A DNA stretch of 64,000 nt, taken from positions 34,837,949 through 34,901,948 of the forward strand of contig OX387182.1 of assembly GCA_947561395.2 (NCBI GenBank), read 5' to 3'. The stretch is from Buxus sempervirens. Its lineage: Eukaryota > Streptophyta > Magnoliopsida > Buxales > Buxaceae. The notes below the pieces were generated by a model. That model was not told the origin of the DNA and made no database searches. It worked only from the letters and a program-made list of their open reading frames with translations. Of this stretch, positions 23,430-55,186 are shown in pieces. The first letter of the stretch is position 1. The number at the start of each line of letters is the position of its first letter. A program made the translations under genes and the position numbers.

Positions 23430-23438
23430 TATAAATAG
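23430..23438 (+). promoter_or_regulatory. TATA box of the 5' LTR
   Basis: TATAAATAG, following ggcttggcc. It is identical in the 3' LTR at 44611-44619. Confidence 0.7.
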
Positions 23439-25260: not shown

Positions 25261-25279
25261 TGGTGACTCTGCTGGGGAT
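25261..25279 (+). other. Primer binding site
   Basis: tggtgactctgctggggat starts 2 nt after the 5' LTR. This is the usual form for Tat/Ogre elements (tggcgactc-type PBS). The tRNA is commonly given as tRNA-Arg in Ogre; I have not matched it here. Confidence 0.8.
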
Positions 25280-26856: not shown

Positions 26857-26943
26857 AACCGTCCTGAGTATGCGGTTGTCTGCATTTTCGCTGCAATCGC
26901 ATGTATCATACGGTTTGGACCAAACCGTCCTGAATGCACGGTT
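26857..26943. promoter_or_regulatory. Three CCG-N11-CGG type palindromes in the leader
   Basis: Triplet pairs: 26859-26875, 26897-26913 (first triplet TCG) and 26925-26941. Arms are aaccg/cggtt. Confidence 0.75.
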
Positions 26944-27668: not shown

Positions 27669-28058
27669 TCATAGGACTCCTGGAAGCCTGAAATTCCAGA
27701 TCTTTTTCAAAATCCTCATAGGCCTTCTAAAGCCTGAATTTAGAAACTCATAGGACTCCTGGAAGCCTGAAATTCCAGATCTTTTTCAAAATCTTCATAG
27801 GCCTTCTAAAGCCTGAATTTAGAAATTCATAGGACTCCTGGAAGCCTGAAATTCCAGAATTTTTCAAAATCTTCATAGGTCTTCTAAAGCCTGAATTTAG
27901 AAATTCATAGGACTCCTGGAAGCCTAAAATTCCAGAATTTTTCAAAATCTTCATAGGCCTTCTAAAGCCTGAATTTAGAAATTCATAGGACTCCTGGAAG
28001 CCTGAAATTCCAGAATTTTTCAAAATCCTCATAGGCCTTCTAAAGCCTGAATTTAGAA
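27669..28058. repeat. 78-bp tandem repeat, five copies
   Basis: The unit begins tcataggactcctggaagcc and includes ccttctaaagcctgaattta. Units are well conserved, then decay into single motifs (ggaagcctgcgtaattccaa) up to about 28370. The minus-strand ORF here is a repeat artefact. Confidence 0.9.
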
Positions 28059-28599
28059 AATCATAGGCCCCTGAAAGCCTGCGTAATTTCAGGAGGTTGT
28101 GGAAGCCTTAATTCCAAAGCATAAGCCCTTGGAAGCTTGCGTAATTCCAAGTCTCGAGTTTGTCTAAGGATTTTTTTTTACTTTGGACATCTCATTTCTT
28201 GTGGAATAAGTTGGAAGCCCTAGAATTTTCCAATATTGGTAGGTCTTTTTCGTACCAACCAAGTCATAAGCCCTTGGAAGCTTGTGTAATTCCAATGCTT
28301 GATTTGACTATAGGCCTTTACTATAGCCACATCATCTTTTGTGGGACATGTTGGAGGCCCTAGAATACTCCAACAGAATTTCTGTGGTTTGATCTTTTTC
28401 GTATCAATCACCTCATTTTAATAAGGTTATTTTAACCATAAATCCAAAAGGCAAAAAAATATGAATATAAGGAAAATCCCAAACTCATGTTCACCAAGCC
28501 TACATGCATGCATTCATAGGTGTGTAAAATTGATTTAATAGGATACTAATATTTTTTCTTTGTCCTTTTTCTTTTAACAAAGGTTTCCGGTTCCTACTG

Positions 28600-30950
28600 C
28601 AACCATTGCTCCTCGACGTTCTCAGAGACTGAAATCTGCCACTATGAATCCTATTGAAGAACAGTCCACTGTTTCTGCTGAGGCCTTTGCTCAACTGTAA
28701 GAGCAAGTGGCAGGGATGACAAAACTACTGGAGAATTTGCTGGCCAACCAGGCAGCTCAGGCCCAGATGCAGGCGCAGCAGGCGTAGGCTCAGGTTCATC
28801 AGGCTTCATCATCCCACAATGCACCACCACAGGCTCCACCCCAGACTGACCTTCCACCACCAGTCCAACCTATCCCACCTCAACCTGAACTCTACCAGCC
28901 AACCCCCGAACCTATCTTGATCCGGGAGGAGGAATCTGAATATAAGAGGGAGAAGGAGAAAGAAAAGGAGAGACTGAGGGTAGAAGTGGAGAGAAAATTT
29001 TTGGACAAGCTGGAGTCCATTCAAGAGGAGCTGAAAGAAGTAAGGGGGATCAACACGTTGGGTGGTACCAATTTTAAAGATCTCTGCATGTACCCCGACA
29101 CGTGCCTACCTGCCAAATTTAAGTGCCCGGACTTCGAGAAATATGACGGCACCGGATGCCCAATGAGCCATCTGAAGCTCTACTGTGGGGCATTGTGCCA
29201 ATTTGGCCAGGATGATGGTATTTTGATCCAGCTATTCCAGAGAAGCCTGACAGGGGCAGCTTTGAGGTGGTTCGCAACAGTGGACCACGGTAGAATCAGA
29301 AGGTGGAAAGATCTGGCTGATGCTTTCCTAGCTCAATACAGATTCAATGCTGACATCGTGCCAGACAGGTACGATATGATGAAGATGAGCAAGGGAAGAG
29401 ATGAGACAGTCAGGCAGTATGCCAAAAGGTGGAGAGAGGCCACCTCTCAAGTCAGGGCGCCCATGATGGAACCAGAGATGGTTACCACCTTAATTGGCAC
29501 ACTGGGGTAGCCATTTTACAATCACTTGGTGGGTCAGATTACCACCAGCTTTGCTGCTCTAGTACAAGTTGCAGACCGGATTGAGGATGGAATCAGATCC
29601 GGGCGAATTTATGACCACTCTGCCTCGGCTCGTCAGCAAGAGCCCACTTCTGATCCTTCTGCCCAGAAGCAAAAAAATGGGGCAAGAAGGAACGGAGGGA
29701 AGAAAGAAGGGGAAGTAAATATGGTACAACCCCAACAACCCAAAAAACCACTCCAAGTCAATATTGCTGCACCTCCATCCAGCCCAGTGCAGCCGCAATC
29801 GACCTATCAAAACCCTCTCAATATTAATGTTCCTCAAGCAGCAATGCCCAACCAAAAAGGGTATTCTCGAAAGAGGAGAGAGACGCTTGGATGGCGTCTA
29901 GAAAGAATAGGGTCCTTTCCCCTCTTCCTGTGACTCCGTCCCAGCTATTTCCAACTCTGTTAAACGCGGGGTATGTTACCCTGAAAGAACCAAATCCGAA
30001 TGCTTCGAAGGGAAAGAATTTCGATCCCTCCACCACCTATGAATACCATATGGGTGCACCAGGACACCCTACAGACAGGTGTTGGCCATTAAAACATGCA
30101 ATCCAGGATTTGATCGATCAGGGAACCTTGTTGTTTAACACGGCTGCACCCTCTCCCGCCAGGACTGACATTGGTCAGAATCCTCTGCCCCAGCATAATG
30201 AGGTTGGTCCTTCCAATTTTGTAGGGACCGTCTCTTCTGGACCTAGGACGTTTGATCCCTCGCAGTTAATTGCGCCAATAGGGACGTCCGTTAAGGTCTA
30301 TTTTGACCAAGAAGAGATAGGGGAACAAATCAATGTCATTTCTGGAAATAAAGGAAGTGGCAAGACTGTGGAGGACATTAATGCCTCTCTGAACCGGGCC
30401 GCTTCTCTCATGGCCCAGCTTAATGTAACCAAACCCCCTCTCATCATTAATTGCAACCAGGCTGTTGCTCCCCCACCTACTCCATCATCCAAACCATCTT
30501 TGGTCATTAATTATGACCCCACCACAGCATCAATTACCTCCGTTTCTTCTCAGACCTTGAAATCCTCTCAACCCAAGGAACCCAGGCAATCCTCGCCTCT
30601 GGTTATTGAGGTGCCTTCTTCTAACCCCATTCCCACATCAACTCCTGCACCAAGGTCTCATCTCCAGCCCTTGGTATTTAACGTTCCTAAACCCTCCTAT
30701 TCAGAAACTGCTGTACCTTGGAACTACAGCGAGGGTTATACGACCACTATCCCAGTGGCCAGGAATCAGAGTCAGGAGGAAATAAATCTCATGACAAGAT
30801 CAGGGAGATGTGTGGAAGGAAAGGAACAAGAAAAGAAAGAGGCAGAGCAAGTCCAGAAGGGGAAGGCCAAGATAGGGGAAGACACCCCCCAGGTCGTCAA
30901 TGATGAGGTAGCAGACCTCCTAAAAATACTGAAAAAGAGTGAATTCAATA
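28600..30950 (+). CDS. gag: gag region of the giant element (Tat type)
   Basis: The region codes for a proline- and glutamine-rich leader, a charged segment, then the retrotransposon gag core near 29090-29510, with FKCPDFEKYDG, LIQLFQRSLTGAALRWF and RQYAKRWREA. This order is usual in Tat gag. A long low-complexity P/S/T/Q-rich tail follows. It would form the particle shell. The region has a few breaks in this copy. Confidence 0.85.
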
Positions 30951-31089
30951 TTGTCGACCAATTGATCAAGGTCCCTGCCCAGATATCAATACTGGGATTA
31001 TTCCTTAATTCAGAAAAGCATAGGGACTCATTAATAAAGGTACTCCAAAGTGCTCACGTGCCTAAGGCGATTGAGCCAAACCAGCTCGG

Positions 31090-31650
31090 CATGATGATCG
31101 GCCAGATCTTATCTCATAATGTAATAAGCTTTTCAGAAAGCGAGATAAGCCCTGGCGGATGTTATCATGTGGACCCTTTGCACATCACTGTGCTTTGTAA
31201 GGGTAGCATGATAGCCCGGGTCCTAATCGACAACGGGTCAGCCTTAAACGTCTGTCCCTTGGTAACATTTGTGAGGCTTGGTCTGGACCAATCCAAAATA
31301 AAGCAGAACGGAAGGATTAAGCCTTAAACGTCTGTCCCTTGGTAACATTTGTGAGGCTTGGTCTGGACCAATCCAAAATAAAGCAGAACGGAAGGATAGT
31401 GAGAGCTTTTGATAGCTCCAAAACACACTCCCTAGGGGAGATTGAATTGCCGATTACCATCGGACCGAATATCTTTAATATCACATTCGAAGTGATAGAT
31501 ATTCCTGCTGCCTTCAATCTACTTCTGGGAAGGCCGTGGATACACTCAGCTAGGGCTATACCATCCACCCTTCACCAAAGGGTAAAATATATAAGGGGTC
31601 AGAGGGTGATAACTGTCCTAGTCGAGAGTCTAGTCCCTCCCGTCATACCA
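31090..31650 (+). CDS. Protease region of the giant element
   Basis: An aspartic protease region is marked by ARVLIDNGSALNVCP near 31220 and by a downstream hydrophobic-LLLGRPWIHSA motif (about 31520-31560). Both are standard for Tat proteases. It cleaves the polyprotein. The region is damaged in this copy. Between protease and RT, Ogre elements are known to splice out an intron; whether this element does so was not determined. Confidence 0.8.
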
Positions 31651-32639
31651 CCTGACGTACCTTTCATTAATGTGGAATTAACGGCAAACAAAATTGCGTT
31701 TCATTCTTTTCAGTTTGAAACAGTCAACTTCATACCTGGGGGTTGTCTAAAAAAGAATGAGAAGTTGACATGCGCCAACAAGATGGTGGAAAAGGTTTTA
31801 AGAGATTGCAATTTCCACCCAGGAATGGGGTTGGGAATTAATCTACAAGGAAGAGTGGAGCCCATAGAGGCACAGAGGTTGGTCCCACGAGCAGGACTAG
31901 GGATGAAAATAAGAAGATGGAAGAGGGGACCACAGAAAGAAAATGGTAACGAAAGGGAGAAAAATCAAGGAAAATTCCCTCATTTAAGGGAAACTTTTCC
32001 GAAGCCCTCTCATACCATTCAATTGTCTCCTCCTACAGATTCCTCCAAACCTCCATATTTTAATGATAATCCTTTTAGAAAACCCTTTACCTCAACCATT
32101 CAACCTTTTATCCCCTTTTCACCCACTTTGGCGCCTAAAGCCGTGGATGAGCCTGAGCCACTGCCACGAGAACAGCAGGATTTCACGGAAGAGGCAGGGG
32201 CATTCTTTGCAATGACAGAGGATGAAGGAAGAGAGAAAGCAGAAAAAGAGGTTCCTTTTATTGACTGGGCCTCAATCAAGATCCCAGATGAAGTCACCTC
32301 TGAACTCAGCCCCGAAGCAGAAAAGGGCAGTTTTTCAAATCCGGTAATGATGGTATCGGATCAAGAGCTTGAGGAGGAGCAGGTTTGCACTATACCACCT
32401 GTTCCAGAGGGCTTTGCACTAAAAAATTGGGAAGAGATCCCTTTGACATTTGAGGCTGCATATGGTTGGCAATCAGCTGCGGCCTCAAAAAAAAACTCCA
32501 TTAGTGGATTGCCCTTTTCCTGAAGGTTTTAATGAACCTTCATCTTCAGGAAAAGCCTCTTTAGAAGGTTCTCAAAAAACCCAAAAAGATTTTTCAACTT
32601 TTTCCAGAAAATCTAAATCTTTCAAAATGGTCCAGACTG

Positions 32640-35600
32640 CTTATGAACCATATATACAGACTGAATTAGAGCAAGTTGAATATGACTTCGACCTCGAGCT
32701 CGACTTCGACCTAATGGGGATTGAAGAGGAGATCGAGGCTGAAGACGATGACCTTCCAAGAGAAATATCATATCAATTGGAACGTCACGAAAAGGGTATT
32801 CAACCTAATATTGAAGAAACCATTTCCATAAACCTGGGAACCGAAGAGGACCCGAAAATTGTAAAGATTGGTGCATGCTTGTCTGATATGCAACAGAAGG
32901 AAATGTCCCAATTCTTGGCCGATTACAAGGACGTGTTCGCATGGTCTTATCGGGATATGCCAGGGTTGGATACAGACATGGTTGTACACAGGCTGCCAAT
33001 CCTGCCAGGAGTAAAGCCCATTAAGCAGAAATTAAGAAGGTTGAAACCAGAGTGGACTTTAAAAGTCAAGGATGAAGTAGTGAAACAGTTTCAAGCCGGG
33101 TTTTTGGCGGTTTCCACATACCCTGATTGGCTAGCTAATGTAGTCCCGGTTCCAAAGAAGGATGGGAAGGTCAGGATGTGTGTAGATTACAGAGACTTGA
33201 ACAAGGCGAGCCCGAAGGATGATTTTCCTTTGCCACACATCGACATCTTGGTTGATAATACGGCAGTGCACAGCTTGTTCTCTTTTATGGATGGTTTTTC
33301 CGGATATAACCAAATCAAAATGGCAAAGGAGGATCAAGAGAAAACCACTTTTATCACTCCTTGGGGAACCTTTCACTACACAGTCATGCCTTTTGGATTG
33401 AAGAATGCCGGGGCAACATATCAGCGAGCCATGACAGCCCTTTTCCATGACATGATCCACAAAGAAATGGAGGTCTATGTAGATGATATGATCACCAAAT
33501 CGTGTGAAGAGGAAGACCACTTGATCAATCTAAATAGGGTATTTGACCGTCTAAGGAAATACAGCTTAAGGCTTAATCCAGCAAAGTGTGTTTTTGGAGC
33601 CACATCAGGGAAATTGTTGGGATTCATTGTAAGCAGAAGAGGGATTGAGATAGACCCGTCTAAAGCAAAAGCAATCATTGAGATGCCGCCTCCTAAGACT
33701 GAAAAAGAAGTTAGGGGTTTTCTGGGAAGAATCCAATATATTAGCCGGTTCATAGCACAACTCACTGCTATTTGCGAGTCAATCTTTAAGCTTCTAAGAA
33801 AGAATAACCCAACTATATGGAATGAGGATTGCCAACAAGCATTCGACAAAATAAAGGATTATCTGTTAAATCCACCTGTTCTGGTACCGCCAACTCCAGG
33901 AAAACCATTGATTCTGTATCTATCGGTTTTAGAAACATCAATGGGATGTGTATTGGGGCAGTATGATGAAACAGGCAGGAAAGAAAAGGCTATCTACTAT
34001 TTGAGCAAGAAGTTCACAGATTATGAGACGAGATATTCGCCTTTGGAAAAGACTTGTTGCGCTTTGGTATGGGCAACTCAGAGGCTTAGGCATTATTTCT
34101 TAAGCTATTCGACTATGCTGATTTCAAGGATGGATCCGTTAAAATATCTGTTTGAAAAGCCGGCTTTAACTGGTAGAACAGCGAAGTGGCAGCTTTTGCT
34201 TTCAGAATTCGACCTGACATATGTCACTCAGAAAGCAATCAAAGGTCAAGCGATTGCTGATCATCTAGATGAACACCCATTACCAGATTATCAGCCTTTT
34301 AAGACGAATTTCCCTGATGAGGCTTTCTTATTTGCTGAAGAGGAAGAAAGTGAAGACTCCTGGCAGATGTTCTTTGATGGGGCTGCAAATATGAATGGAA
34401 ATGGGATCGGCGCAGTATTAGTGAAGCCGGATGGTTCACATATCCCAATCGCAGTGAAATTGAGGTTTCAGTGCACGAACAACATAGCAGAGTATGAAGC
34501 GTGTATAATCGGATTGCAGGCTGCTCTGGATCATGATGTTCAAGAACTTGACGTATATGGGGATTCGAGTCTTATCATCTTCCAAACAACCGGTGAATGG
34601 AAAACCAAAGATCACAAGTTGATCCCATATCACCAATATTTGGAAGAAATAAGTACCAAATTTACTCGAATTTCTTTCAGCTATATGCCAAGATCTAAGA
34701 ATCAGTTTGCGGATGCCTTGGTGACATTGGCTTCGATGGTTAGTATTCCAGAAGGGGTAGACATACAACCACTGGAAATTGAAGTTAGAGACGAGCCAGC
34801 TTATTGTCTTGTTTTAGAAGGAACGCAAGAAGCAGAAATACCATGGTTTCAAGATATCAAGAATTTCTTGAATAATCGAGGTTTTCCAGAAAGCGCCAAT
34901 CCTACTGAAAAAAGAACAATACAGAGGTTAGCGGGGCAGTTCCTCCTAAGTGGTGGGCAGCTATACAAAAGATCTTACAGTAATGTTCTACTTAGATGCG
35001 TCACCAAGGTTGAAGCAGAAAGGTTGATTGAAACAGTGCACGGAGGAGTCTGTGGGCCGCATATGAATGGACACATGCTCGCAAGGAAAATACTGCGATT
35101 GGGATATTATTGGTCTACAATGGAGCACGATTGTTGCCTACATGTTAAGAGATGCCATTTGTGCCAAATATACGCTGATAATAAGCATGCACCACCAAGT
35201 GAGCTGCACAGCATGACCTCTCCATGGCCTTTCTCTATGTGGGGTATTGATGTCATTGGGATGATTTCTCCAAAAGCGTCAAATGGACACCGGTTCATTC
35301 TAGTGGCAATCGATTATTTCACAAAGTGGGTTGAAGCTGCTTCGCATGCAAATATTACAGGGAACCATGTTCTTAAGTTTCTGAAGCACAACATAATTTG
35401 TCGCTACGGGTTGCCAAAGGCCATAGTTTCAGACAATGCTTCAAATATTAAGAACAAGGATATGAAGAAGATGTGTGAGCAGTTTCAGATAACTCATCAC
35501 AAGTCAGCCCCATACAGGCCAAAGATTAATGGAGCAGTAGAAGCGGCAAATAAGAACATAAAGAAAATAATCCAGAAGATGGTAGTAAGTTATAGAGATT

Positions 35601-36091
35601 GGCACGAGATGTTACCATTTGCTCTCCATGCTTACAGAACCTCAATCCGAACTTCTACTGGGGCAATGCCATATTCCTTGGTTTATGGAACGGAGGCAGT
35701 CTTACCTGTTGAAGTAGAAATCCCTTCATTGAGAGTGCTTATGGAAACAGAAATTGAAGAAGCTGAATGGGTTCAGTCAAGATATGAGCAACTCAATTTG
35801 ATAGAAGAAAAGCGTTTGAATGCGCTTTGCCACGGTCAACTGTATCAGAAGAGAATGGCCAAAGCCTACAATAAGAAGGTGAAGCCCAGAGCTTTCCAAG
35901 TGGGTAATTTAGTCTTAAAGAAGATATTGCCATTTCTGGAAGACCCTCGCGGAAAGTTTAAGCCAAATTGGGAAGGACCTTATGTAGTGAAGAAGGTCTT
36001 GTCAGGAGGCGTTCTCATCTTGGCAGAAATGGATGGGGCAGATTTTCCTGAGCCAATTAATTCCGATGCGGTCAAACAATATTTCCCTTGA
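32640..36091 (+). CDS. pol: pol: reverse transcriptase, RNase H, second RNase H, integrase
   Basis: The frame is open throughout. RT lies at about 32990-33640 with VDYRDLNKASP, MPFGLKNAGATYQ and the catalytic YVDD at 33473-33487. The Ty3-type RNase H follows at about 33800-34250. A second, archaeal-like RNase H lies at about 34360-34740 (FFDGAANMNGNGIG, NNIAEYEA, YGDSSLI), the mark of the Tat lineage. Integrase has its zinc-binding HHCC part at about 35039-35175, its core at about 35215-35580 with D, D and E in GIDVIG, SDNAS and GAVEAANK, and a C-terminal part with FQVGNLVLKK near 35900. It ends at 36091. This part looks whole. Confidence 0.95.
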
Positions 36092-37145
36092 AGGAATATC
36101 ACAAAGAAATGATCCAAGGCCATTTTTTCTTTATCCCTCACAAATTTTTAATATCCCTAGATTAAACCAAGTTGAGCCTGTTCGTGTTTTAAAGAACCCA
36201 AACTGGAGCTTACAGTCGCGACTGGGGCAAAGTTAATAAAACAAACAACAAAGAAGGGAAAATAGCAAAGAAAGGCCAAGTACAAAGAAAAGAAAAAAGG
36301 CCAATATTGGGAATGGGGGTCGCATCCATTATAGCTGTAAGCCCAGTTGTCCCATTTCAAAGATGTCAAAATTTTGAGCCTATAATAACCTTCTTTCATA
36401 AACTCAACCCAGCCTTCATTTCGTCCTATTGGTCAAGTCCTCGGTGATCTGTGTGTATTCCTTCAACTCGCGTTGTTGAAAGGGCAATGACGGAATAAAT
36501 AAAGCCGGCCCTAGTGAAAACCGTAATAGGCACTAGGGGCAATATTGGCAAAGAAAAGGCAAAAGAAAAAAGAATAAAAAGAAAAGAAAGAAACAGAAAA
36601 AGAGGTCACCAACCGCACTTGGAGTACAGATTGAACCAAACCGCCCTTTGACTACGGTTTAGGCAGAAGGGCTATGCAACCGCATATTGAAGACGGTTTT
36701 GGCTAAACCGTTCTGAATGCACGGTTTTGGGCAGCAGAATTGAGTTGAGCAAATTTTCCGCACAGCACTGAACCAGTAGGCTGTGGCATACCCCCTGGAA
36801 GTGGGAAGGAAACTTGGGGATGAGTCTAAAGGTTCCAAGGGGGACGGAATGGCTTCCTCCTCATTAACTAAAATACCCTTTTTGCCCAACTTACTTCAAT
36901 TCGTCCAACTACATGGGATTAAAGCATTATGGACCAATTTACAATAAAAACACACAAAAATGAAAATTATATTTTGGTCGATGATGAGAAATCAATGACT
37001 TTTCATTAAAACTGTCAGTTTTTACAAGCATATGAGAGTTCTAAGGCCAATAGTATAAAAACCTATTTTGTATTCTCTATCTTTCCGCTAGTGGAGTTTC
37101 TCTTTGTACAAAAGTGTAAAAAAGAAAAAAATACAATAAAAGGGG
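36092..37145 (+). other. Spacer between pol and the antisense genes
   Basis: Non-coding. Three CCG-N11-CGG palindromes lie at 36639-36726, with a partial fourth at 36611. A-rich stretches lie at 36230-36300 and 36540-36605. Nothing else is recognised. Confidence 0.6.
36639..36726. promoter_or_regulatory. Three CCG-N11-CGG palindromes after pol
   Basis: CCG/CGG pairs at 36641-36657, 36680-36696 and 36708-36724. All have aaccg/cggtt arms and spacing of exactly 11. Confidence 0.75.
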
Positions 37146-38799
37146 CTAATCTCTATCCCCTAGCCTTTTTTCAAGCTCTCTGATCCAAGCCGCCTGAACC
37201 GCCACAAGCCTTTCAGCCCCCTCTGCATCTGGGTCACTGAGGAATGAGATGACGTCATCTGAGAGGGTCTGTCTGGTCCTCATATCTCTGAGCCTGGCCA
37301 TGGTCTCATCATGCCTACGCCATGCGGCTCTCACCTCGAAGCGACGGGCCTGTATCTGCTCTGATAACCGTCTCTCCAGATCTTCCTTCTCCAATCTCAA
37401 GGTTCGGGCCTCCTCCACCCATATGTGCTGAAGCCGCCTATGAGAAGCCCGTTCAGTCTCCAAGAGGTCCTCATAGGTAGGACACGGGATAGCAGGAGGA
37501 TCTACCGGTACAGAAGCGCAGCTCTGCACCTGCTCTTTAATCCAAAAGAGGTAGTCCTTCTCATGCAATTTGGAGAAGACAGGACCTCTCAAGAAGCAAG
37601 CCTGCGACCAGTCCTTCAACAGGCGGAAGCATAGCCCCATGGTGGCCGATGTGAGCGGACCTATGAACTCTTCATATCCCTGAGGTACCAGAATCCCCTG
37701 CACCTCCTCTCCGAACTGCCGGATGACTCTCAAAGGCAAGTAAAGCAAGGCAGACCTCAAGCCCATGAGCACAGCGAAATTCTGATCGAAGAAGCTGATC
37801 ACTATCTCGACAGAAGGCTGATAAGCACCAGGCCATCTCACCTGGTCGTCCTGAAGCGTCCCCAAGAAAGCGAACCATCTCTGTTTGCCGCCATGGATGT
37901 TGGGACACCCCCTGTTACTCATCAAAACAGGAATGTTCAATCTGGGGAAGAAGCGGCGGGTTATCTCTTCAACTTGACTCAGGTGGTCAAGGAGCCAGAG
38001 CTGCAAAGAAAAGGGAAGCATTTCTAAACTTAGAAAATCTCAATTTTGCAATAAAAATTATAATTCAAGAAAGAGGTTCAGATTTTACCTGAAGTATAGG
38101 GGCGCAGGCAAGGAAACTTTTTTGCTTCCGATGATAGCAGTCAGTCAAGGCCTGGTATATTTCAGCCAGGATCATAGGGGCAAGCCTTTCGAGCTCCCTA
38201 ACTTGGCAAATGACTGAAATGAGGGATAAATCAACCTCGCTATCACCTCGGGGGAATAAAAGTTGATTGACCACTATCAAGGTCAAAGCATTGAACCGAG
38301 CCGATTGGTTTGAGCTGTTCAACAGCTTTTCAGTCAAAAATGACTTTGATAGGGTCAATAGGGCGTCGGCTTCCCCTAGCTCTTTCTTGCTAATTCCTAA
38401 AAAGGTGGAGGCTTCCTTTTTGAAGCTTGGTTTGAGAGGTGGATTGACTACTTTCTTCGAAAACCTAAGGTTGAGGATGGTTTCAACCTCCTCGACTATA
38501 GGGGTCATCTCTTTTTCCCCAAACCTAAAGAGGTTCAGTTGGGGCTCCCAGTTCCCAATCAATGCCTCTATGATTTCCCATTTTAAGGGAACCTTTGGGA
38601 TTGAGAGAAGGTGGCCTAGATTGGCAGAATCCCAATCTATCTCATCTTGTGGGGTCATTGAATCAACCCACCTCTCATAGTAAGTATCTACAACGGCATA
38701 CCTAGTCAAATTGGGAGGTTTGGACCTAATTTTTGGCCTAGGTGCTAATGTTTCAGGTACAGAAGATGAAGAGGGCACAGAAACTGAATCAGAAGCCAT
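37146..38799 (-). CDS. DUF7745-type passenger gene, antisense to pol
   Basis: Two exons are visible on the minus strand, 38799-38089 and 38000-37146, separated by an 88-bp intron with GT and AG borders and a pyrimidine-rich 3' end. Exon 1 encodes an S/P-rich start, ERWVDSMTPQDEIDW, FRFGEKEMTPIVEEVETIL, FLGISKKELGEADALL and ends CAPILQ. Exon 2 encodes LWLLDHLSQVEE, RVIRQFGEEVQGILVP and a charged, probably coiled-coil C-terminus (EKEDLERRLSEQ). These features fit plant DUF7745 proteins, relatives of the plant mobile domain. It appears whole. The molecular function is unknown. A TATA-like box and a CCG-N11-CGG palindrome lie about 110-140 bp upstream of the start. A decayed relative is at 1155-2592. 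Confidence 0.8.
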
Positions 38800-38904
38800 T
38801 AATGGGCAAAAGTGGATTAAAGGCAGCTAGGAGAGAGAAAATCACCGAAAAGGGGGTTTCTGGCCTAAGCAATACGTCAAAATGACGTCCTGCCCGCAAT
38901 TCGC

Positions 38905-38937
38905 GGCTTTAAAATAACCACACTCAATGTGCGGTTG
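38905..38937 (-). promoter_or_regulatory. Putative antisense promoter of the DUF7745 gene
   Basis: On the minus strand a TATA-like TATTTTAAA (38908-38916) lies directly downstream of a palindrome with triplets at 38918-38920 and 38932-38934 (spacing 11, one triplet CCA). A second palindrome is at 38987-39003. The start codon is at 38799. Confidence 0.5.
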
Positions 38938-39235
38938 CATTCCCGCAAAGTTTAAAAATCGCGGGATAAGCACGGTTCTTGCATAACCGCCCTGTATGTA
39001 CGGTTTTTGCACAAAAATAGTTTTTTCTTCTTTCTTTTAATAAGTCATGTTCCCCAAAAAAACCTGTTACCTGTATAGCAGTTGCAACATGATAAACATA
39101 CACAAAAGAACAAAAAATTACAAGAAAAGAAACAAAAATAACTAATTTTCTCTTTTTCATATAACTGCAAATGGATACATCATGTTTTATATACAAATAT
39201 CAGATAAATCCTAATCTAAACCTATCTCCCACAGG

Positions 39236-42041
39236 TCAATCCCCCTCGCCTCTACCTCGCCGTCGCTGCCGGATGAAAAAATGATCTGAGAAGCGCTGGC
39301 TAGCAGGAGAAGATGGCTCGCCAAGTGAAGATGGACCAGTAGGAGGCTCTGGGTCTGCAGGAGGCGCAGGATCGGTAGAAGAAGCAGGAACGGGAACTGG
39401 ATCATCCCGGGAAAGATCCATGAAGCAGGAAACTGAAGTATCCGTCGCCAAAGGGACCAGCTCCAGAACCCGGGAATCCTCGGCAGGAGGAGAGGAATCT
39501 ATAGGATCCGCTGCATCACACACCTCTGCCACCTCAGGCTCAGCTACACCTGGCATATCCTCCTCTCTCACGGGCTCGGCCGCCTCAGGAACCACAAGAG
39601 CCTCTGAGTCACCCTCCGCTGTCTCAGGAGCGGTCTCCGGCTCAGATACAAGAGCAGTCTCAGATACAGGCACAGCCTCTGGCATCTCAGCTGACTCAGG
39701 AACTGCAGCAGCAGAAGTAGCCTCGGCCGCCACCTTAGTCTCTCTCTCTGGGATCTCTGCAGCTCCTAAGGAAAAGGATAGAGTACGAGAACTGGATGGT
39801 GAAGCTGCCACATCCTCCTGGAAAACAAAGAAGGATTAATCAGAAGCAGAAAAGATAAAGAAAAAAATACAGAAACTGAAAAAGACAGACCTGAGCTCCT
39901 GAAGGCCCCGCCTGGCCCTGAGCACTGGCCAACTGGGCCCGCAAGTCGGCAATAAGAGCGGCCTGCCCAGTAATGATGACGTCACTCTCAGCTATGGCAG
40001 CATCCCTCTCAGCCAGCTGGCGCTCCAGATCCGCATATCTAGCCCGGACCTCCTCTAGCTGTGCCTCCTGAAATGAGATAAGAAGAAAAAAGATATCAGT
40101 CAAACTTTAAACAAGAGAAGGAGACTAAAAAGACTGCACAAGGGAATGAAATTTGTTATACCGTGGTGTCGTACAAGCGGACCACCACCCCTCCAATCTC
40201 AGTAACTCCACCTCGAACGGGCATGGGCTGCATAAGACAACCCACTGAGACCTGCCCGAACCAGGTATCATAGTCACCATTGACTAAAAGGCCATCTCCT
40301 CCCTCCCAATCGCCAAAATGGGCAAGGTCGAATGGACCAGGAGGGGTGAAGGGTGCAGTAGTTGGAGGAGCCACTGGGATCCGGAGCTCGCCAGTATTCT
40401 GGAAGAAGAAGCGCTCGCCGAGGTACCATATGCTACCCAACTACCCGATGAAGAATGGGTACCTTTGACGCCGCTGATCCAAAGCAAAAGCGTCATCCAC
40501 GAAAGGCTGAAAAGCCAACTCATCGTGCAGGCCGTCGAGACGGGGAACAGATAGCTGAGGATAAACAAAGGAGAATGTCAGATTCTGACAAAAAGGAAAA
40601 AATAAAAGAAGAAAGTGCTTACCTCTCTCCTGAAGGTCTTGTCCAGGTGAGCCCTGGCCGACCTAGGGCGACTCTTCTCTGAGTCGCGCCTAATCCGATT
40701 CCACCGGCGGGCCAAGGGAAACGTCCCCTCAGGCAATGTGGAGGTAGGGCGAAAATGGGCCACATAGACCCGAGCAAAGAACTAAAAGAAAAAAAAAAAG
40801 AGATAAGCAAAGAAAAAAAGAGAAGAAAAAGAAAAAAAAGAAAAAAGAAAAAAAGAAGAAAAAATAGAAGAGAAAAAAAAAGAAAAGAAAGGAAAAAAAG
40901 AAAGAAAATCATTTATACCTGCAGAAAGGGCCAAAAGAACCTGCAACCCACTCCAGCTCCTCTGGGAGAGGATAGGCCAGAAACCACTCATCGTAGGCCC
41001 GCTAGCAAGGTGCTGTAGACAAGCTGGCCCCAAGCATACTCCCTCGCTCGGTGCAGATCTCGGAGAAGGCTCAGGAAATGGGGATTGACCGAGGTAGTAT
41101 CCTCCAAGCAGAAGCAGGATCCCATCATCAGAAGGAAAAAAAATCGGAAGGCCACGGGAAAACTGGGATGCTCTGCTGCTAAGGTGCTGTATCCCCTCTG
41201 CAGAAATGTCTCCCTCAACCAGGTCCGTGAAATACGGGTAATCCTGCTCCTGTCCCACGCCGCCACAGGCATCTCATCATATTCCAAGAGCTCGACGATC
41301 TCCAAATCCGCCGGCCGATCCATCTCAGTGATGACATCTCCAGTCATCCTGATCCAGTAATGAGAGAGAAGTCGGAGGGGCGAATACCAATCTCCACGTC
41401 AGGCAGATGAAAGCTCAAGGTCTCTGGGAAAAATCGCTCCATCAGGGCCAGGATCAAAGGCCGATCCTGGCGAACGCCGGTAATGGTGATGAAGGGGCCA
41501 AATCCAAAACGGCCCATCTTTCGACGCAAAGGAGTCGAATAGGCCGCTACTACATCGGCAAAAAGGGCCCAGCTCCCGCGAAAATGGGAAGATGGAAAAG
41601 CAAGAGGAATGTCTGCCTTGACGCCCGCCGAAGGATGCGTCGTCAAATCATGGAGGAGAGGGGTATCTCGGATCTGATCCGCTATCTCCGAAGGAATGGC
41701 AACACGAGTCACCCGGGCTCCTGCCCTACCTCTACGACGAGCTCCCCTACGCTCTCGAACCTCGGCAACAGGCTAGAAAAGCAAATGAGAGGGTTTCAGA
41801 TTGAATGTGGTAAAAGAGAGGTCTGTTTTTTGAAAAGAAGAGAGAATACCTCGGGTACCGACTCCAGCGAATCCCCAGACGCTCCAAAGTCTGAATCTGA
41901 AAGCTCCAGACTGCTGGGAGAATAAGGATCAGGGTCTGGCTCGGCCCTAGAAGAAGATGCCACATCGGCCGGATCCCTCCGAACCCTCGAAGAGGAAGGC
42001 TCATCTGTGGGACCCCGAGAAGCGCGACGTGTACGGGCCAT
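39236..42041 (-). CDS. Plant mobile domain (PMD) type passenger gene, antisense to pol
   Basis: Coding blocks run from 42041 down to about 39236, separated by short intron-like gaps, some with clear borders (for example 41849-41773). The first block has an acidic, serine-rich N-terminus (MARTRRASRG). The next have RRKMGRFGFGPF, LMERFFPETLSFHLPDVEIG and a 'LITG' motif near 41350, then FRFFFLLMMGSCF and LHRAREYAWGQL (41000-41150), then PLARRWNR (about 40700). These are hallmarks of the plant mobile domain found in MAIN/MAIL-type host proteins and in transposons. A coiled-coil block (about 39890-40075) and an E/A/P-rich tail (39236-39811) follow. Blocks were not joined; at least one break is likely. 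Function is unknown. Confidence 0.7.
40785..40905. repeat. Purine-only low-complexity tract (AAAGAAAA)n
   Basis: About 120 bp of almost pure A and G on the + strand, within the PMD gene's span and probably in an intron. ORFs made of lysines or phenylalanines here are artefacts. Confidence 0.9.
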
Positions 42042-44028
42042 CTATAGGATCAAATTGCAGGGGGAAATTCATTATGTTTTCGGCATTTAAGATCATTATA
42101 TCTACTTTCATGTGTCCGTTAATTTAGATTTTTCTGGATTAATCAAGTTTGTTTTATTTGCAGAAAAAATGGAGATCAGAAGAAGCACTTCAAAAAGTGC
42201 CCCGCCAAACCAGGATTTGACTCTTTATTATTTCTGTTATATATAAGAACTATATATAAGAAACAAAATTTCCTATATATGTTTCTTATAAACGAGAAAA
42301 AAAAGAGAAGAAGAAAGGTTCATGAAAGGATCTATTCAGAGTTTTCAATTCATTTTCAATTCTAGAGTCTTGACAGGTTTACAAACTTACCTAAAATCCT
42401 AAACTGTTAAATGTGTTTTAATTTTCAGGTTCACAGGGAAAAGCAATCACAGAATCCAGGATCACTCAGTTCCTAACAAGCATCCGGATGTTCAACTCAA
42501 ATTAAGGTTTCTGGATCAATCCTATTTGTGTCAGCATCAATTGGATCCAAAGCCAATCAATGCCAGCATACAAGTAAATCAGGGGGAGACATCTATGCCT
42601 CTATCCCAAACAGCAGAGATCATGCATAAACAAGTGGAATGCTAACCAAGAGAAGTCAGATGTATAGTAGCATGAACAGATATAGAAATTGAAAATATTG
42701 ACAGCATTGGCATTCAAAAAGATCACAAATTGTCAGAAATCCATATTTTCGGCAGGCATAGCATTTGGGGATTTTCTTCAGTCAAGACATTCAAGCATGT
42801 CGGAAAAGCAGAAAATTCCAGTCTAAGGGTTCAAGCTAGCAGAAATAGCATACCAAGTTTGCAAAGCATAATCAATAAATTGATCAGTCGCCAAGTACAT
42901 ACAGTCCAGATGAAATATTGGCAAGAAAAAAGCAAAGCATAGGCCAATTTGGGGGGGGGGGGGTCTCCCTCGACCAAGATCAAAATCATGCTAGAAATCT
43001 GAAGCTATACAGGTCATGGAGTTCAGATCGATACAGTCAGTGGGCACATACAAGATTGGGGATTTTCTTATCCCATTAACAACAAGGTGACTAAGGCATT
43101 AAATCAATGGCAAATTTCGTGTATAAAAGCATTCAAATCATGGAATCAGAGCACAAAACTTTCGAACAAATTGTTTGCAAATTCGGACAAGGATTCGGCC
43201 ACCTACCTGTATCAACCGAAAAATAAGTCTGGCAAGAAAAACAGGAGCTTGACCTCACCAGGAACTTGGAGGAGGGTCGATTGAAGTGGCAGTCGAGCAA
43301 GCTCAGAACAGAGGACAGTATGACGGGTCCGCCGGAAGCTACAGTCACCATGAGGATTGTCGGTCACTCGAAGAAGCTAAGTCACCGGAAAAAAACGGAA
43401 ATCACTGGAGAGAGCAGAGTTCACCGGGAAAAGATGATGTTGCCGGAGGAGGTGTCTTCGTTGGAGGAGAAGAGGTGAAAGCCGGAGAGAAGGCACGGTC
43501 GCCAGAGAAGAAGAACAAGATTGGAGTTCAAGGGTTTTTGCGAGCAAAGTGAAGCCAGTCGCGGTCGCGTTTATATACAACCTAGACAACCGCACATACA
43601 GAACGGTTGGTATTAATATTGTCGAAAACCGCACATACAGAACGGTTGAAATCGAAATTGTTAAAAACCGCATGTTCAGTACGGTTGGCACCCAACAATG
43701 AATTTTCAAAACTTTTCCAATCTCTTTCAAAGGATCTGTGTCCAGGATAGTTGTGAATTGCAAGAAGCACCACCCTATCAACTTTTGCTTTAAAAATTTG
43801 CTCAAATCTCACTTCATAGCCACGAGTGCTCTGTGAGACACGAGAAGAGGATTTGCCCCTTAAAGTTAGGGACTTTTCATCAGATCCTCTAAACAAATTC
43901 TTTTTCAAAAATCAAGTTGGAATTCTTGCAGCTCATGATCGAATGGACATGATCTTGGGAAGCACAATTTGCGGGTCTTTTTCCTCTCCGCTGTTAATTG
44001 ATTCCAATTCCAGCAAACAGGGGGCAGT
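42042..44028 (+). other. Non-coding 3' region, with PPT
   Basis: About 2 kb between the PMD start and the 3' LTR. It has a G13 run near 42952, the antisense promoter at 43570-43686, and ends with the polypurine tract acagggggcag directly before 44029. No + strand gene is supported. Confidence 0.6.
43570..43686 (-). promoter_or_regulatory. Putative antisense promoter: TATATAAA plus three CCG-N11-CGG palindromes
   Basis: On the minus strand TATATAAA (43570-43577) lies 10-110 bp downstream of three palindromes with CCG/CGG pairs at 43590-43606, 43629-43645 and 43668-43684, evenly spaced 39 nt apart. A transcript would run toward the PMD gene (start at 42041). This copies the layout seen upstream of LTR TATA boxes at 54352 and 51229. 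Confidence 0.6.
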
Positions 44029-46439
44029 TGTAGACACCCCAAATTGCACCTCGATATAAGAGAATACTCAAAATGAACTTTAAAAGTCTTATTTTGAGCT
44101 TTGACATATGTCAAACACTCAAAAACTCTCAAAATCGGTGCCAACCGTACTGAGTATACGGTTTTTGTAATTTTGGTCTCAACCGCTCTGTATGTGCGGT
44201 TGCAGCCGCACACACAGCACGGTTGATATCCATGCTTGTTGCGTGAGCTGCCACGTGGCTTCGCGAAGCTTCGGCCGTTGAGCCACGTCGACAGCAATCA
44301 TGACGAGCGTAACTGAATTGAACCGTCCTGTATGTGCGGTTTGGTTAAATTTGTATAGAAACCGCACTTATAGTGACGGTTGTGTTGAAACCGTACTGTG
44401 TATGCGGTTTTGGCTGTTTCGAGGATTTGCGAAATGGCTCGATTTCTGAGCCTTATTTACGCATATTACCTCTCTCTCAGGGACTTGAACTCCCTATTTC
44501 ACCCTCCGAAACTTCTAGTATTACACCAATTCAAGTCTTGGAGGAGAATTGGAATAATCTAGAAGGCATTTTAGGCCTACCCTTGGGACTCTTCTACCCT
44601 TGGCTTGGCCTATAAATAGAGGGGTCCTCCTCTTGCAAATGGCTGATAATTTGAAGCTTGGAATCTCTGCAAGAAGAGGGAGAACTCTGCTGGATTGCTG
44701 CCTCAAGTATTCAAGCTACCAAAGGTAAAGCTCTAGTTGATTTTCAGCACTCTTTTTACATTCCAACTCTCTCATCTTCTACCTTTCTGTAGTGTAAGGC
44801 CACTTTGTGTTGTTTTGTAGCCCCAAACCCCTTCTAAAGTACCTGGGAATCCTCTCTAGCCGTAAAACGTGAAGAGAGAGCCTTGGGAAAAGGAAGGTGG
44901 AATGGATCCTCTAGGCTTAGAACCTATAAGTGATGAAGACCATGCTATGTGGTTATTTTAAGCCTATGGATGTTTATTTTCTGATGTTTTGCACTTGCTC
45001 ATGGAGAAATATGTGAATCCTTGCTCTCAGTAGCAAAGGATTCCATCCTTCTCCTAGGGAGTGAATTTTCACATGTTCACACACCTTTCACCATTTTTAT
45101 CAAAGAAGCTAGATCTTGGATTTCCATGTTCAATACGGGAAATCTGAATCCATTGGCTTCAAAATGAATCTTAGAACTTCATGAGATGGTTTTTTGTTGA
45201 TTTTTAAGGTTTTGGTCGAATCCACATGCACTGGTTTCCATGTTTTACCCAAAAATCTTCAAAACAGGGCAGATCTGTGGCCTGTCTTGGAATGCTTATA
45301 ACTTCATCCTCCGGATGAATTCTTGAGTGATTCCAAAGACATGTGATAGATGGATATGCCTATTTTATATCTGGAAAATTTCGTCCACTTTTATGTAGCC
45401 AATTTTTGACACCATCTGTTCAAAGTCTGTAAGTCATTTCAGCCCAGATTGCTTAACTTGCCGCTTTGATGGTGCACCGTTTGCTCAGTTTTAATCCGTT
45501 TTGTGTGATTCTAATTTCTGAGTTTTCCTTGAGAGGTCTATTTTCATTTCCAACTGGTTTCAGAAGATTTTGATATGTTTTGTGCCTTGGGTGCTCAGTT
45601 GACTCAGAGGTGCTCGCTGGCATAGTCCAGAGCTAATCTGTGGTCTTCTAGGCCTGTTCAAGAGAGCACACAAGTCACATCCGGATAGAGTTTGGTGTGA
45701 GGTTTTTTTCTTTGGAAATATGGCACTACATACTTCCCCCATACCAATTTTCATGAATTTTTATTGAGCCAAAGTCCACGAATAGGATTTTGAAAATGCC
45801 TACTCCACACTTTTCCAAGTTATAAACAGCAAATTTCAGATGTGGATTTCTCTTTTATTTTGAATCGGATTGAGTTGAAATTTTTACTGTATATTCTACT
45901 ACATACCAGTTTTCAAATGGCTTTGGTTTCATTGGATTTGGATTTAAATTGAGTAAGTTATGGTTAATCAAAGCTTTCAAGCTCTTTTGATCTAATTTCT
46001 CCAGATTTGCCTTAGCTTGATTTTCTTCATTTTCACTTGGATTTCCCTTCACTCATGAAGTTTTAGAGGTGATGGATCCACAAAAAGAGTCTAAGCCCAT
46101 TAGACTTCTCATGTGGGATGGTCACACACATTGTGCTTGTTATAAGCACCCTTTTTGTTCATTTTTATTAGCAAACAATTTCTAACATAAGCAAGCATGT
46201 GGCAACCGTCTTAGACGGATGAGTGGGGGTGCCTAACACCTTCCCCTGCTCATAAATAATTCCCCTTACCCAATCTCTGGATTTTTCCTTGTATTAGAGC
46301 TACTTTGGCTCTATTAGGCATAGATGAACCCTTTGGTGTCCATTCACACCTTAAAATGGATGGTGGCGACTCTTAGCTTTTATCGACCCCCACGTGACGA
46401 TATAGGAAGTCATCGGAGATGACGAATCCATGTCTCACA
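44029..46439 (+). repeat. 3' LTR of the giant element
   Basis: 2411 bp, the same length as the 5' LTR, with about 30 differences by eye. It has the same palindrome cluster (44143-44409) and TATA box (44611-44619). It ends GTCTCACA, followed by ggatg. Confidence 0.95.
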
Positions 46440-48268: not shown

Positions 48269-48332
48269 ATAGCCGACTTTCCTGGTTGGCTACACACAAG
48301 TTTCAGGTGATCCGACTTGAGTTGTTGGATCA
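48269..48332. promoter_or_regulatory. Two CCG-N11-CGG type palindromes
   Basis: Sites are 48269-48293 (arms atagccgac/gttggctac) and 48308-48332 (arms tgatccgac/gttggatca). The right triplet is TGG in both, and spacing is 11. Confidence 0.75.
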
Positions 48333-52345: not shown

Positions 52346-55186
52346 CCAACCAATAGGTAATCCAAGACCAACAACAAGGCACATCAAACCATGCAAGTTA
52401 ATCACAAAACAATGCATGCTGTGGACATTTGAGACAGCAGCCTCTAAAGACAATTCGGACCAGTTTTAGTCATGCTAAAGGGATGGGAAGTGCTTAGGGA
52501 CTATGGGGAAGGGGTTACATTCTTGCAGGGTGCTAAGGGCTGGGTTGGGAGTGCAAAAAAGTGGGTAAACCTGTTGGGTACAGCAGCCGAACAACAAGGG
52601 GAGGGAGAGCATGGTAATGGTGGATGCATACATACATGCCCGCATTCATAGTGACCACACAAGGTAGTCATGCCATACATGCACATAGCAAAGAGATAAA
52701 AGAAAACACATAATGTGGAGGGGCAAATGCAGCTACTATTAAAGGCATTTAGACATTCTAAGGGGTGCCAAATAACAGACAAGGATGGGGATAGACTGCT
52801 GTTATCTCCAGCAGCAACCCCTAGGGATCATACCAAGGGGTCATGGAGGTAAAGGGAGTATGGTTGCATTCATACATGACACATGGAGGGGAGGGACTGC
52901 CCTGGTGGTGCGGGTGTCTAATGGGCTGGTTTAGGGGTGTACACAAGTGGGTAAGCTTGCTGGGTACAGCAGCTGTCCAGGGGGTCTGCACATACTAAAA
53001 AGGGGTTGGATTGGGAGTAAGGGGATCATGCACACATAGGTTAAAGGGCTAGGCTTGGGGGGGGGGGGAAGCGTAGGCACCTTGATAGACCTGCTGAAGA
53101 GTGTGGGACAGCAATAGATAGTGAGGGTTTGCTGCTGTCTTCCGCAGCAAATTGCATGGGTCATAACAGGGGATCATTGGGGTGGGGGAGCATATTTATT
53201 AACCACAAAATAGCAAACAAAAGAGAGGCAAACAAAGGGGCACATTAATTCTTCAAAACAACAACATGCTATCAGCAAAACAGTGGGCTAAAGAAAGGGG
53301 AGGGGAGCATTCATGCAGGATGCTTAGGGGTGGGATTAGGTGTGCCAAGCAGATGGACAACCTGCTGGAGCAGCTACTGTCCAGGGGGTTTTAGGTATGC
53401 TACAGTCATCAAATATAAAGGGGGAGGGGATCATGCTTATATGCACAAAAATAGCAAGTGATAAGGGGTTGGGGGAACATGTTGGTGCGCCCTACCATAG
53501 CATGTTAGCTGGTAGGGGGGGAGGTTGTTGCTGTCATCCACAGCAGCTCCAGAATCCATGTCAAAGGGGGGTACAAGGGAGACATGCATCTCAAACATAA
53601 ATAGAAAAGAAATCTCACCACAGTCCATGCATGCCTTGTCATACACCAAATAAGTAAATCTGCACATCCAAACGTGCATTCACCATGGCACACAAAGGGA
53701 AGAGGATATGAGGAGCAAAAGAACACTCAGAAAAATTACGAAAAGGTGAGAGAAGAGGAAAATCAAGAAGGGTGATGGGGGGTTATATGGTGGGTACATT
53801 AGATTTGCTCAAGAGGGAACACACTCCCTCAAAAAAAAATAGTAAGAGAAAACCCAAAATAGTAACTTGGAAGACATAAAAGTACATGGACGATCTCTCA
53901 TCCTCTCCCTAGAGTTACACGTACTCTACTTCTTACCTTGGAGACCTCCATATGGCAAGGTGGGAGCAAACATACAAAGGTAATGCAAAAATAACAGCTC
54001 CAGGTGAGGGTTAGATCAAACATCATGTTAATGGCTCATTTTCACTTATGTAATGTAAAATACCACAATAAACGATACCTGAGGGGTGAAGAGATTCTGG
54101 AGCAATGTATGGAGCCCCTTGGAAGCAGAACCAAGTGCTGGAAGTCTCCTCTCCAGCAGCAACAGCAGTAACTCCTCCTCTTGTTGGGGTGAAAGTGAAG
54201 AGGAAGAAGGAAAGGAAAGGTTTGGACAACCTTAAGGTGGTGTAGGGAGGTGGTGGAGGCAAGGGAGGTTAAGGAGGAGAGGATTCGGACCAACCAAGGA
54301 GGGGGAAAAAGGGTTAAGGCCAGCAACCCTCGGCGAGGGGGGTTGCTGGCCTATTTATAACCTTCAATTTGTATCCAACCTGATAGGTCGGATACACTAG
54401 CAATTGCTTGTATCCGACCTATCTGGTTGGATACATTAACATTTCTTTGTATCCGACACAAAAGGTCGGATACAAACAGCATGATTGAAAAAATTTAATG
54501 CTGCTATAAAATCTGTCGTAAAATTCGACAAGATTTCTGCAGAGATTTTTTGTATCCGACATATTGTGTCAGATATGAACAAATTTATTTGTATCCGACA
54601 TATTTCGTCGGATCAAAAAGGCGAGTTTTTGATATTTACAGATTGCCCCCGGATTTGACACCTAAGATAATCGCAGATTGCCCCCTGCGAAATTTTAGTT
54701 CAATCCCTGAGATATTTTGTACATTTTGGATATTCACGAATTACCCCCTGAGATATTTATCTGCGTTTCCCGCCACGTGTGCAGTTCTTTTACCACATGT
54801 GCAGTTTCCGGCATTGCTGTCCGGAAACTTTAACTGCTCATATCTTCTTCATCCGGATTCCGATTTGAGTAAACTCAGTTGCGTTAGAACCATATCAGAG
54901 TCCTCTATTCATTGTGGCAAGGTTAAGTAGCTGATCTAGGGTTTAGCAGAAATTTCATTTCTGCTCCCCCTCAAGTTTGACCAGCTTGCAGATCCTTCAT
55001 CCAGACTCCGATTCCAGCAAACTCAGTTGCGTTGGAACCGTGTCGGGATCCTCTATCCATTGAGATAAAGCAAGGTGGCCAATTATCACTTGATCAAAAA
55101 GTCAACTTTCGCCCCTTGGGGTTTGACTTTCCAGCTAGGGTTTGCATTTTCAGCACTTCCGAGAGCGCAAAAATGAGGTGCTTACA
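52346..55186 (-). mobile_element. Outer minus-strand LTR-B, piece 3
   Basis: A CATG-rich part (52400-54300, with a G-run near 53057), TATA-like tatttata (54352-54359), five palindromes (54371-54615) and the LTR end GGTGCTTACA at 55186. It probably continues 47393-48604, split by the LTR at 48605-52345, but the join shows no clear target duplication. Confidence 0.6.
54352..54615 (-). promoter_or_regulatory. LTR promoter with five CCG-N11-CGG type palindromes
   Basis: The minus-strand TATAAATA is at 54352-54359. Palindromes of 25 bp lie upstream at 54371-54395, 54410-54434, 54449-54473, 54552-54576 and 54591-54615. Arms are gtatccgac/gtcggatac. The first three and the last two are each spaced 39 nt apart. 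Confidence 0.75.

Follow-up and report, generated by a model that had tools for sequence, protein, structure and literature searches.

CCG-N11-CGG palindromes in phased arrays as putative protein-binding sites of Tat/Ogre-type LTR retrotransposons in Buxus sempervirens

The stretch analysed here, called the window, comprises 64,000 nt of Buxus sempervirens (contig OX387182.1, positions 34,837,949 to 34,901,948; designated contig C1) and consists of nested long terminal repeat (LTR) retrotransposons, in which a palindrome with the triplets CCG and CGG exactly 11 nt apart (CCG-N11-CGG) recurs in arrays. One genome was covered, the 676.5-Mb assembly of this host. A giant Ty3/gypsy element sits inside an older LTR element. 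Pfam domains RVT_1, RT_RNaseH, RVT_3, Integrase_H2C2, and rve follow one another in this order on its pol open reading frame (ORF, 32447-36091), and a G-patch domain was identified on ORF 31321-32523, directly preceding it. According to the available part of a published survey, Ogre and Retand elements from flowering plants contain an extra RNase H between RNase H (RH) and integrase, and 57% of Ogre elements carry the plant mobile domain (PMD) (PMC6317226). The RVT_3 domain of the giant element would represent this extra RNase H. An additional antisense ORF coding for a PMD/DUF7745 protein and the very large size (span of 23.6 kb, with the group reaching about 24 kb) are also traits of the Tat/Ogre group. 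Because the domain order and the PMD ORF agree with the survey of Ogre elements, the giant element is taken, from its sequence, as an Ogre-like member of Tat/Ogre Ty3-gypsy.

Exact CCG-N11-CGG occurs 34 times in the window, and every other spacing from 3 to 25 occurs 0 to 14 times. When one changed triplet base was allowed and six of eight symmetric pairs were required, 33 sites were counted, 12 of them with a changed base; about 30 sites were given in a preliminary description of this DNA. A generic scan for 9-nt arms with at most one mismatch was rejected as a test, as loop 7 (36 in the window, 6-7 in three shuffles) separates only weakly from loop 5 (35), and loop 9 gave 30. Arrays were present in four of 13 samples of 10 kb taken at preset places on four contigs (130 kb). 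The raw number of N11 sites in these samples was 34, with up to 32 at other spacings, and arm symmetry was needed as a criterion because the raw counts at N11 do not stand out alone. With arm symmetry, the window and samples together contain 65 sites at N11 and 6-35 at other spacings from 5 to 19. Much of the latter is supplied by a satellite-like sample, L015, without which N11 remains at 65 and seven other spacings fall at 7-21. In the complete genome, the pattern ANCCG-N11-CGGNT was found 76,013 times, about 37-fold over N10 (2,067) and about 22-fold over N12 (3,516), and the predicted enrichment of this one spacing is thereby present at the genome scale. With a variable gap of N3-N33 the genome gave at least 203,329 sites and the control written backwards 318,846; the backwards control of the loose pattern gave 17,501 (N10), 30,749 (N11), and 13,783 (N12). 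This control is large because the reversed pattern is a different GGC..GCC word, and neighbouring spacings and tighter patterns served as the main controls in its place. The pattern GTATCCGAC-N7-GTCGGATAC, with 18 exact bases, has 4,335 genomic sites and no site in the backwards control.

The units used for counts of symmetry and period came from 73 pairs listed by an arm-blind search, all located within the initial 3.5 Mb of contig C1. Only distinct units were considered (89 of 108 for inner positions, and 33 of 38 with both flanks), and the expectation was computed from column make-up. Inner positions 1 and 2 are symmetric in 68 and 55 of 89 units (expected 33.0 and 33.7), and outer positions 1 and 2 in 22 and 30 of 33 units (expected 13.2 and 15.6). 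No symmetry beyond column make-up was seen at inner positions 3-5 (89 units) or outer positions 3-6 (33 units). Because symmetry stops after two inner and two outer bases, the site is two inverted 7-bp half-sites NN-CCG-NN, with cores 14 bp apart, around a mostly free 7-bp centre; the arms of 9 nt proposed earlier are thus to be shortened to a constrained unit of 7 bp each. Families with ATCCG have a further GT outside each arm, which hardly varies and which the symmetry test cannot credit. Matched arms prevail in the genome, with 48,312 sites of ATCCG..CGGAT (292 in the backwards control) and 19,195 of AACCG..CGGTT (1,691 in the control). Mixed arms ATCCG..CGGTT were found 907 times on one strand and 915 times on the other, 1,822 in all, against about 28,500 expected for independent arms.

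All arm types named in the preliminary description were recovered in the window. Its designation of the palindromes at 54371-54615 as strict holds for a part of them. The 25-bp units start at 54371, 54410, 54449, 54552, and 54591 (spacings 39, 39, 103, and 39); 54449 alone keeps both triplets and all nine arm pairs, 54591 has both triplets and lost the two outermost pairs, and 54371, 54410, and 54552 have one triplet base changed in each. A unit with the centre CTGAGT is represented by 7,914 + 7,770 = 15,684 sites genome-wide (25 in the reversed control) and is combined with several arm types. In the window this centre, or ACTCAG, lies in the units at 8818, 15061, 15139, 22960, 26855, and 44141. 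The unit with this centre stands at the end in many of the listed arrays, and it may be a mark of polarity or belong to a second factor.

Two adjacent units were found 62,287 times in the genome by the arm-blind search, and 3,397 times with the reversed pattern. The periods among the 73 listed pairs were 39 (34 pairs), 28 (27), 27 (5), 38 (4), and other (3). Neighbour distances of 28 or 39 bp correspond to 14+14 or 14+25, and the giant element and its relatives have arrays in which both occur. As the two distances differ by 11, roughly a helical turn, neighbouring sites would keep the same face of the helix. On contig C1, a period-28 array with CCGTA-type arms (3409085-3409184) and a period-39 array with CCGG arms (3409342-3409475) lie about 160 bp apart, perhaps as a result of nested insertion.

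Features of the window are listed in Table 1. The sites had been placed in LTRs, which is correct for some of the arrays; others were internal or preceded antisense genes, PMD/DUF7745 genes among them. Four of 13 window clusters are in anchored LTRs, five are internal (21644, 26859, 36641, 38918, and 43590), and the other four are at 8822, 14899, 15065, and 48273. Array 21640..21781 belongs to the internal part of the older element, read on the minus strand, close to its 5' LTR.

Table 1. Elements, palindrome arrays, and associated TATA boxes in the window (positions of the window)
Feature	Position	Strand	Remarks
Giant Ogre-like Ty3/gypsy element	22848..46439	+	LTRs 22848-25258 and 44029-46439, 2.4 kb, 98.8% alike; reverse transcriptase (RT), RH, RVT_3, and integrase (INT) domains
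Antisense DUF7745 / Plant mobile domain (PMD) gene of giant element	37146..38826	-	two frames, 38826-38065 and 38039-37146
Five-unit array, arms GTATCCGAC/GTCGGATAC	54371..54615	-	in LTR starting at about 55186, minus strand
TATA box, TTATAAATA	54353..54359	-	12 bp past last unit of array 54615-54371
Array, 5' LTR of giant element, arms mostly AACCG/CGGTT	22960..23230	+	TATA at 23430, about 200 bp downstream
Matching array, 3' LTR of giant element	44141..44411	+	TATA at 44611
Array, leader of giant element, first unit with centre CTGAGTA	26855..26945	+	no TATA by the pattern used; weaker TATAAAC at about 27050
Array between pol end and 3' end of antisense gene, giant element	36637..36728	+	no TATA found
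Array upstream of antisense PMD gene, arms AACCG/CGGTT	38914..39007	-	about 115-210 bp before likely start codon; no clear TATA between
Three-unit array, period 39, giant element	43586..43688	-	directly upstream of minus-strand TATA
TATA box, TATATAAA	43571..43577	-	9 bp from array 43688-43586
Two units, period 39, arms TGATCCGGC/GCCGGATCA and GTATCCGGC/GCCGGATAC	8818..8881		
Five units, period 39, arms GTAGCCGAC/GTCGGCTAC, GTAGTCGGC/GCCGGCTAC, and TGATCCGAC	14895..15163		partly in duplicated stretch of about 166-167 bp
Four units, period 39, arms TTAACCGAA/TTCGGTTAA, and one unit GCCCGAG/GTCGGTC	21640..21781		centre AACTCAA in the GCCCGAG/GTCGGTC unit
Two degenerate units, period 39, AGCCGAC/GTTGGCT and ATCCGAC/GTTGGAT	48269..48332		

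Part of the arrays lie just upstream of a TATA box. In the window, TATA was at the expected place in four of 11 spans, at 54353, at 43571, and in both LTRs of the giant element; the box at 43571 is presumed to be the promoter of a second antisense transcript. Seven loci with a DUF7745 gene (L030-L036, one family) all have a TATA just past a five-unit array: CTATATAAA comes about 20 bp after the array, and the start codon after that. Another element, L014, which has ATCCGG arms, contains three arrays: one precedes the 3' LTR, one is inside the LTR with TATA about 150 bp downstream, and one is in the presumed leader. The array before its 3' LTR is in a promoter region resembling that of the giant element, with a degenerate TATA and a stretch of CGACCGCGAC downstream, and beyond this region ORF 1259-1936 on the minus strand matches PMD (PF10536). 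The arms are mostly AACCG at all six places in the giant element and mostly ATCCGG at the three arrays of L014. The two elements compared thus each have a consistent arm type, and the types differ.

The half-sites are the best conserved part of the arrays. Pairwise difference among seven PMD promoters of one family was 0.044 in half-sites, 0.242 in centres, 0.300 in gaps, and 0.079 in the stretch after the array. Across 55 BLAST alignments of homologous arrays, several of which pair repeats of the same copies out of register, the difference was 0.091 for half-sites, 0.321 for centres, 0.299 for gaps, and 0.130 for flanks; alignments above 98% identity or below 100 bp were left out, and L003 was excluded as it overlaps L002. 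Neutral, methylated half-sites should instead be the fastest-decaying part, given the CpG within each triplet. Amplification of tandem repeats or a satellite, in which local duplication makes the arrays and symmetry is a by-product, would account for their tandem order, and block 14803-15135 is a plain duplication of about 166-167 bp. Yet the half-sites of the PMD promoters are five to seven times better conserved than centres and gaps, triplets with CpG should decay faster and not slower, periods 28 and 39 occur within one array, and arms switch in register in homologous arrays, so that such an origin is scarcely credible.

The switching of arms was followed in seven homologous LTRs (L014, L039, L041, L004, L038, L037, and L002) with four units in register, one of them partly deleted in L002; L001 and L040 were left out, as they are not clearly homologous there. 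Unit 4 is CCGGT..ACCGG in three copies and CCGAC..GTCGG in four, with the centre CTGATAT unchanged in six of seven. In unit 3 the inner bases take three forms, and in each of them the two sides match. In total, 95.1% of cells are paired (90.2 in shuffles, 17-46 in slid controls), 18 cells are changed on both sides, and the covariation of 0.210 (0.110 in shuffles) was not reached in any of 500 shuffles. Kinship among the seven LTRs inflates the counts of paired changes, and the switch may represent few events. The earlier claim that both arms change together is borne out across families and at homologous sites of one LTR family, where related copies switch jointly and not independently; it does not extend to the seven PMD promoters, which are simply conserved.

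Selection for symmetry is the best-supported reading of these data, as the preliminary description had suggested with a dimeric protein or a hairpin in mind. The palindromes are probably binding sites of a dimeric sequence-specific DNA-binding protein, and their phased arrays promoter elements of Tat/Ogre-type LTR retrotransposons (probability about 0.72). A dimeric protein is favoured over a hairpin because the periods differ by 11, some arrays abut TATA, and mismatched pairs were kept unchanged in all seven PMD promoters. A hairpin would be an RNA stem-loop in the genomic RNA, with a stem of 7-9 bp and a loop of 7 nt, active in packaging, stability, or translation. The contiguous stem, the fixed loop, and the covariation in one LTR family agree with it, and in the PMD promoters G-T exceeds A-C on the genomic-RNA strand (27 and 12, with 19 other, in 245 cells), these being few inherited mismatches repeated in seven copies. 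There is, however, no bias to wobble in the LTR family (5 G-T, 6 A-C, and 3 other among 190 cells), and mispaired units such as AACCGTA..TACGAGC are unchanged in seven of seven PMD promoters. Fixed periods of 28 and 39 and the position next to TATA on either strand, seen in part of the arrays, would also not be expected from stem-loops, and an RNA function appears improbable.

Several observations weigh against protein-bound promoter elements. The arrays of the 3' LTR U3 region and of internal regions lie within the sense genomic RNA, as stem-loops would require. TATA is not general: seven of 11 window spans have none at the expected place by the pattern used, namely the giant PMD promoter (38914-39007), the leader, the post-pol arrays, and four spans of smaller elements. 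In LTRs, the distance to TATA is not constant, with 12 bp for the array at 54371 and about 150-200 bp for those of L014 and the giant element. The 1,822 mixed-arm sites exist in the genome. Further pair types, one of five measures in the seven LTRs, show no excess (13, with 14.8 in shuffles), and paired changes are absent from the seven PMD promoters (one family), where half-sites, mispaired ones included, were kept. In four comparisons half-sites differ more than flanks: L014-L004 (13/55 vs. 28/196), L014-L002 (12/49 vs. 29/195), L005-L006 (7/26 vs. 27/150), and window 8818-48269 (8/28 vs. 58/256). The first two are read as arm switching, the last two as unexplained or due to decay. Finally, no array was seen in the examined flanks of 10 of 20 DUF7745 loci, and seven of the 10 array-bearing loci are one family.

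The binder would be an activator or an anti-silencer, which keeps the promoter unsilenced, rather than a repressor, because the elements keep the sites. If a host factor bound the sites to silence the elements, family-specific sites would be conceivable as the outcome of an arms race, but elements should lose repressive sites, and the half-sites are retained; this role is judged highly improbable. The bases beside CCG change between families in both arms of most units, and the specificity of the protein and its sites may diverge together. One protein family with a conserved contact to CCG and variable reading of two bases on each side is suggested, rather than unrelated host factors, because several arm types share the spacing, the periods, and the CTGAGT centre. 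Plant genomes encode many factors with short sites that contain CCG or CGG, and elements could have acquired CCG-core sites of several host factors, one per family. The placement of some arrays before TATA would fit such host factors, whereas the 14-bp spacing, the periods of 28 and 39, and the CTGAGT centre shared by several arm types would not, and they are considered rather unlikely. Everted repeats of auxin-response factors (TGTCGG) were rejected, as they agree with GTCGG arms only and do not fit AACCG, GCCCG, and AGCCG arms.

The candidate binders would be an antisense PMD-type protein or a host family, and the antisense PMD/DUF7745 protein is the leading candidate, put forward tentatively. 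Three arm classes include elements with a PMD gene, and these genes are strongly diverged between classes, with 25% identity over 52 residues between the giant element and L014. Among the first 12 DUF7745 loci by score, two have arrays (L021 and L029) and 10 have none in the examined flanks (L018-L020 and L022-L028), and a universal association of DUF7745 with the arrays was rejected on this ground. An array was found in the upstream region of 10 of 20 loci when the copy in the window and L030-L036 were added to these 12; L030-L036 were chosen by frame length and not by array, and proved to be one family, and L014 was counted apart. L018 and L022-L028 belong to another family, with DUF7745 frames of 446-509 amino acids (six of eight without inner stop) near the apparent 5' end of the internal region, and had no arrays in the examined flanks. 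The N-terminal half of the window PMD protein was modelled by AlphaFold2 with no alignment; the mean predicted local distance difference test (pLDDT) was 40.6, and the model was not used. ORF 29828-31327 and a PMD half-ORF gave chance matches only when compared with solved structures.

In the two elements compared, arms of one and the same type are found in the LTR, in the leader, and in the promoter region of the antisense gene, so that a single protein could control sense and antisense transcription jointly. Tat/Ogre elements might even have a transcription circuit encoded by themselves, in which a dimer of the antisense PMD-type protein binds CCG-N11-CGG arrays of the leader, the LTR U3 region, and the promoter of its own gene. 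Its specificity for the two bases flanking CCG would have diverged by family along with tens of thousands of sites, which would keep families of one genome from cross-activating; this proposal is speculative and somewhat doubtful as it stands. If true, sequence-specific promoter binding would be an ancestral function of the PMD domain and of MAIN/MAIL1, its relatives in the host. With a binder encoded by the elements, LTR retrotransposons would have their own counterpart of VANC or TNPA and a natural series of DNA-binding proteins and targets, and a host factor would explain coordinated activity of many families. The control of transcription in large plant retrotransposons and the role of their antisense ORFs would be directly testable with the fixed geometry, 76,013 copies of one loose form, and natural switches of specificity.

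No description of CCG-N11-CGG arrays in LTR elements was found in the open-licence literature of PubMed Central, with subscription journals and preprints outside this search. What would be new is the palindromic, phased form of element-specific regulatory sites in LTR retrotransposons; repeated element-specific sites as such are already known. Gal4-type zinc-cluster proteins of fungi read CGG triplets as dimers at a fixed spacing that sets the specificity, and Gal4 itself uses the inward-facing CGG-N11-CCG. The units here are outward-facing CCG-N11-CGG with variable flanking bases, and the opposite orientation recognised earlier is right for this main symmetric unit; where the period is 28, triplets of either orientation are separated by 14 bp. 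No Zn2Cys6 domain was among the Pfam matches of 15 ORFs, and the genome was not searched for one. VANDALs are DNA transposons. In Arabidopsis, the VANC/VANDAL system has family-specific short motifs that are dense in non-coding DNA of the element, and co-evolution of motif and protein is proposed in the available text (PMC5735166). The same text gives the VANDAL motifs (YAGTATTAY and AGTTGTCC) in one orientation and non-palindromic, in contrast to the inverted half-sites described here, and states no fixed period for them in the available part (PMC5735166). A family-specific motif repeated in non-coding element DNA is found here as in VANC-type systems.

Subterminal repeats of CACTA elements are also similar, but they are termini of DNA transposons needed for excision and not promoter arrays of LTR elements. 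The En/Spm motif, CCGACACTCTTA, is close to CCGACAACTCAGG of these arrays, and to our knowledge no CCG-N11-CGG geometry is known in CACTA subterminal repeats. All anchored arrays are in LTRs, internal regions, or antisense promoters of LTR elements and none is in a CACTA subterminal location; CACTA ends were not searched for. In En/Spm and Tgm the repeats are bound by TNPA, encoded by the element, and short motifs that differ by family are suggested to co-diversify with the protein, according to the part of the report available (PMC2613891). That part also describes 14 stem-loops formed by the repeats of Tgmt*, which are inverted pairs (PMC2613891). Antisense ORFs of Tat/Ogre/Retand elements share the element group and the gene position, and palindromic arrays, a target site, or arrays at antisense promoters are not described in the available portions of these texts (PMC11963269, PMC6317226). 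For Retand TRP28, DNA binding is predicted and a regulatory role proposed, and family-specific tandem arrays are placed between pol and the 3' LTR, in the accessible text (PMC11963269). The PMD proteins MAIN/MAIL1 are linked to the 'DOWN' promoter motif and to transposon silencing; they are host proteins, and the available main text has no mention of CGG or a palindrome, with the motif itself given in a figure (PMC7156037).

A scan of the window for transfer RNA genes identified none. A second recurrent palindrome, GGGTTTCCG-GGTGACC-CGGAAACCC with variants, was found at 8963-8987, 14789-14813, and 21861-21885, near the arrays of smaller elements. Tandem repeats of about 80 bp are located at 27622-28081 and 57789-58301, the latter related, in inverted orientation, to 6893-7048. 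A further tandem repeat at 51564-52219 has a period of 147 bp, which is the nucleosome length, and is related to the LTR sequence at 54847-55187.

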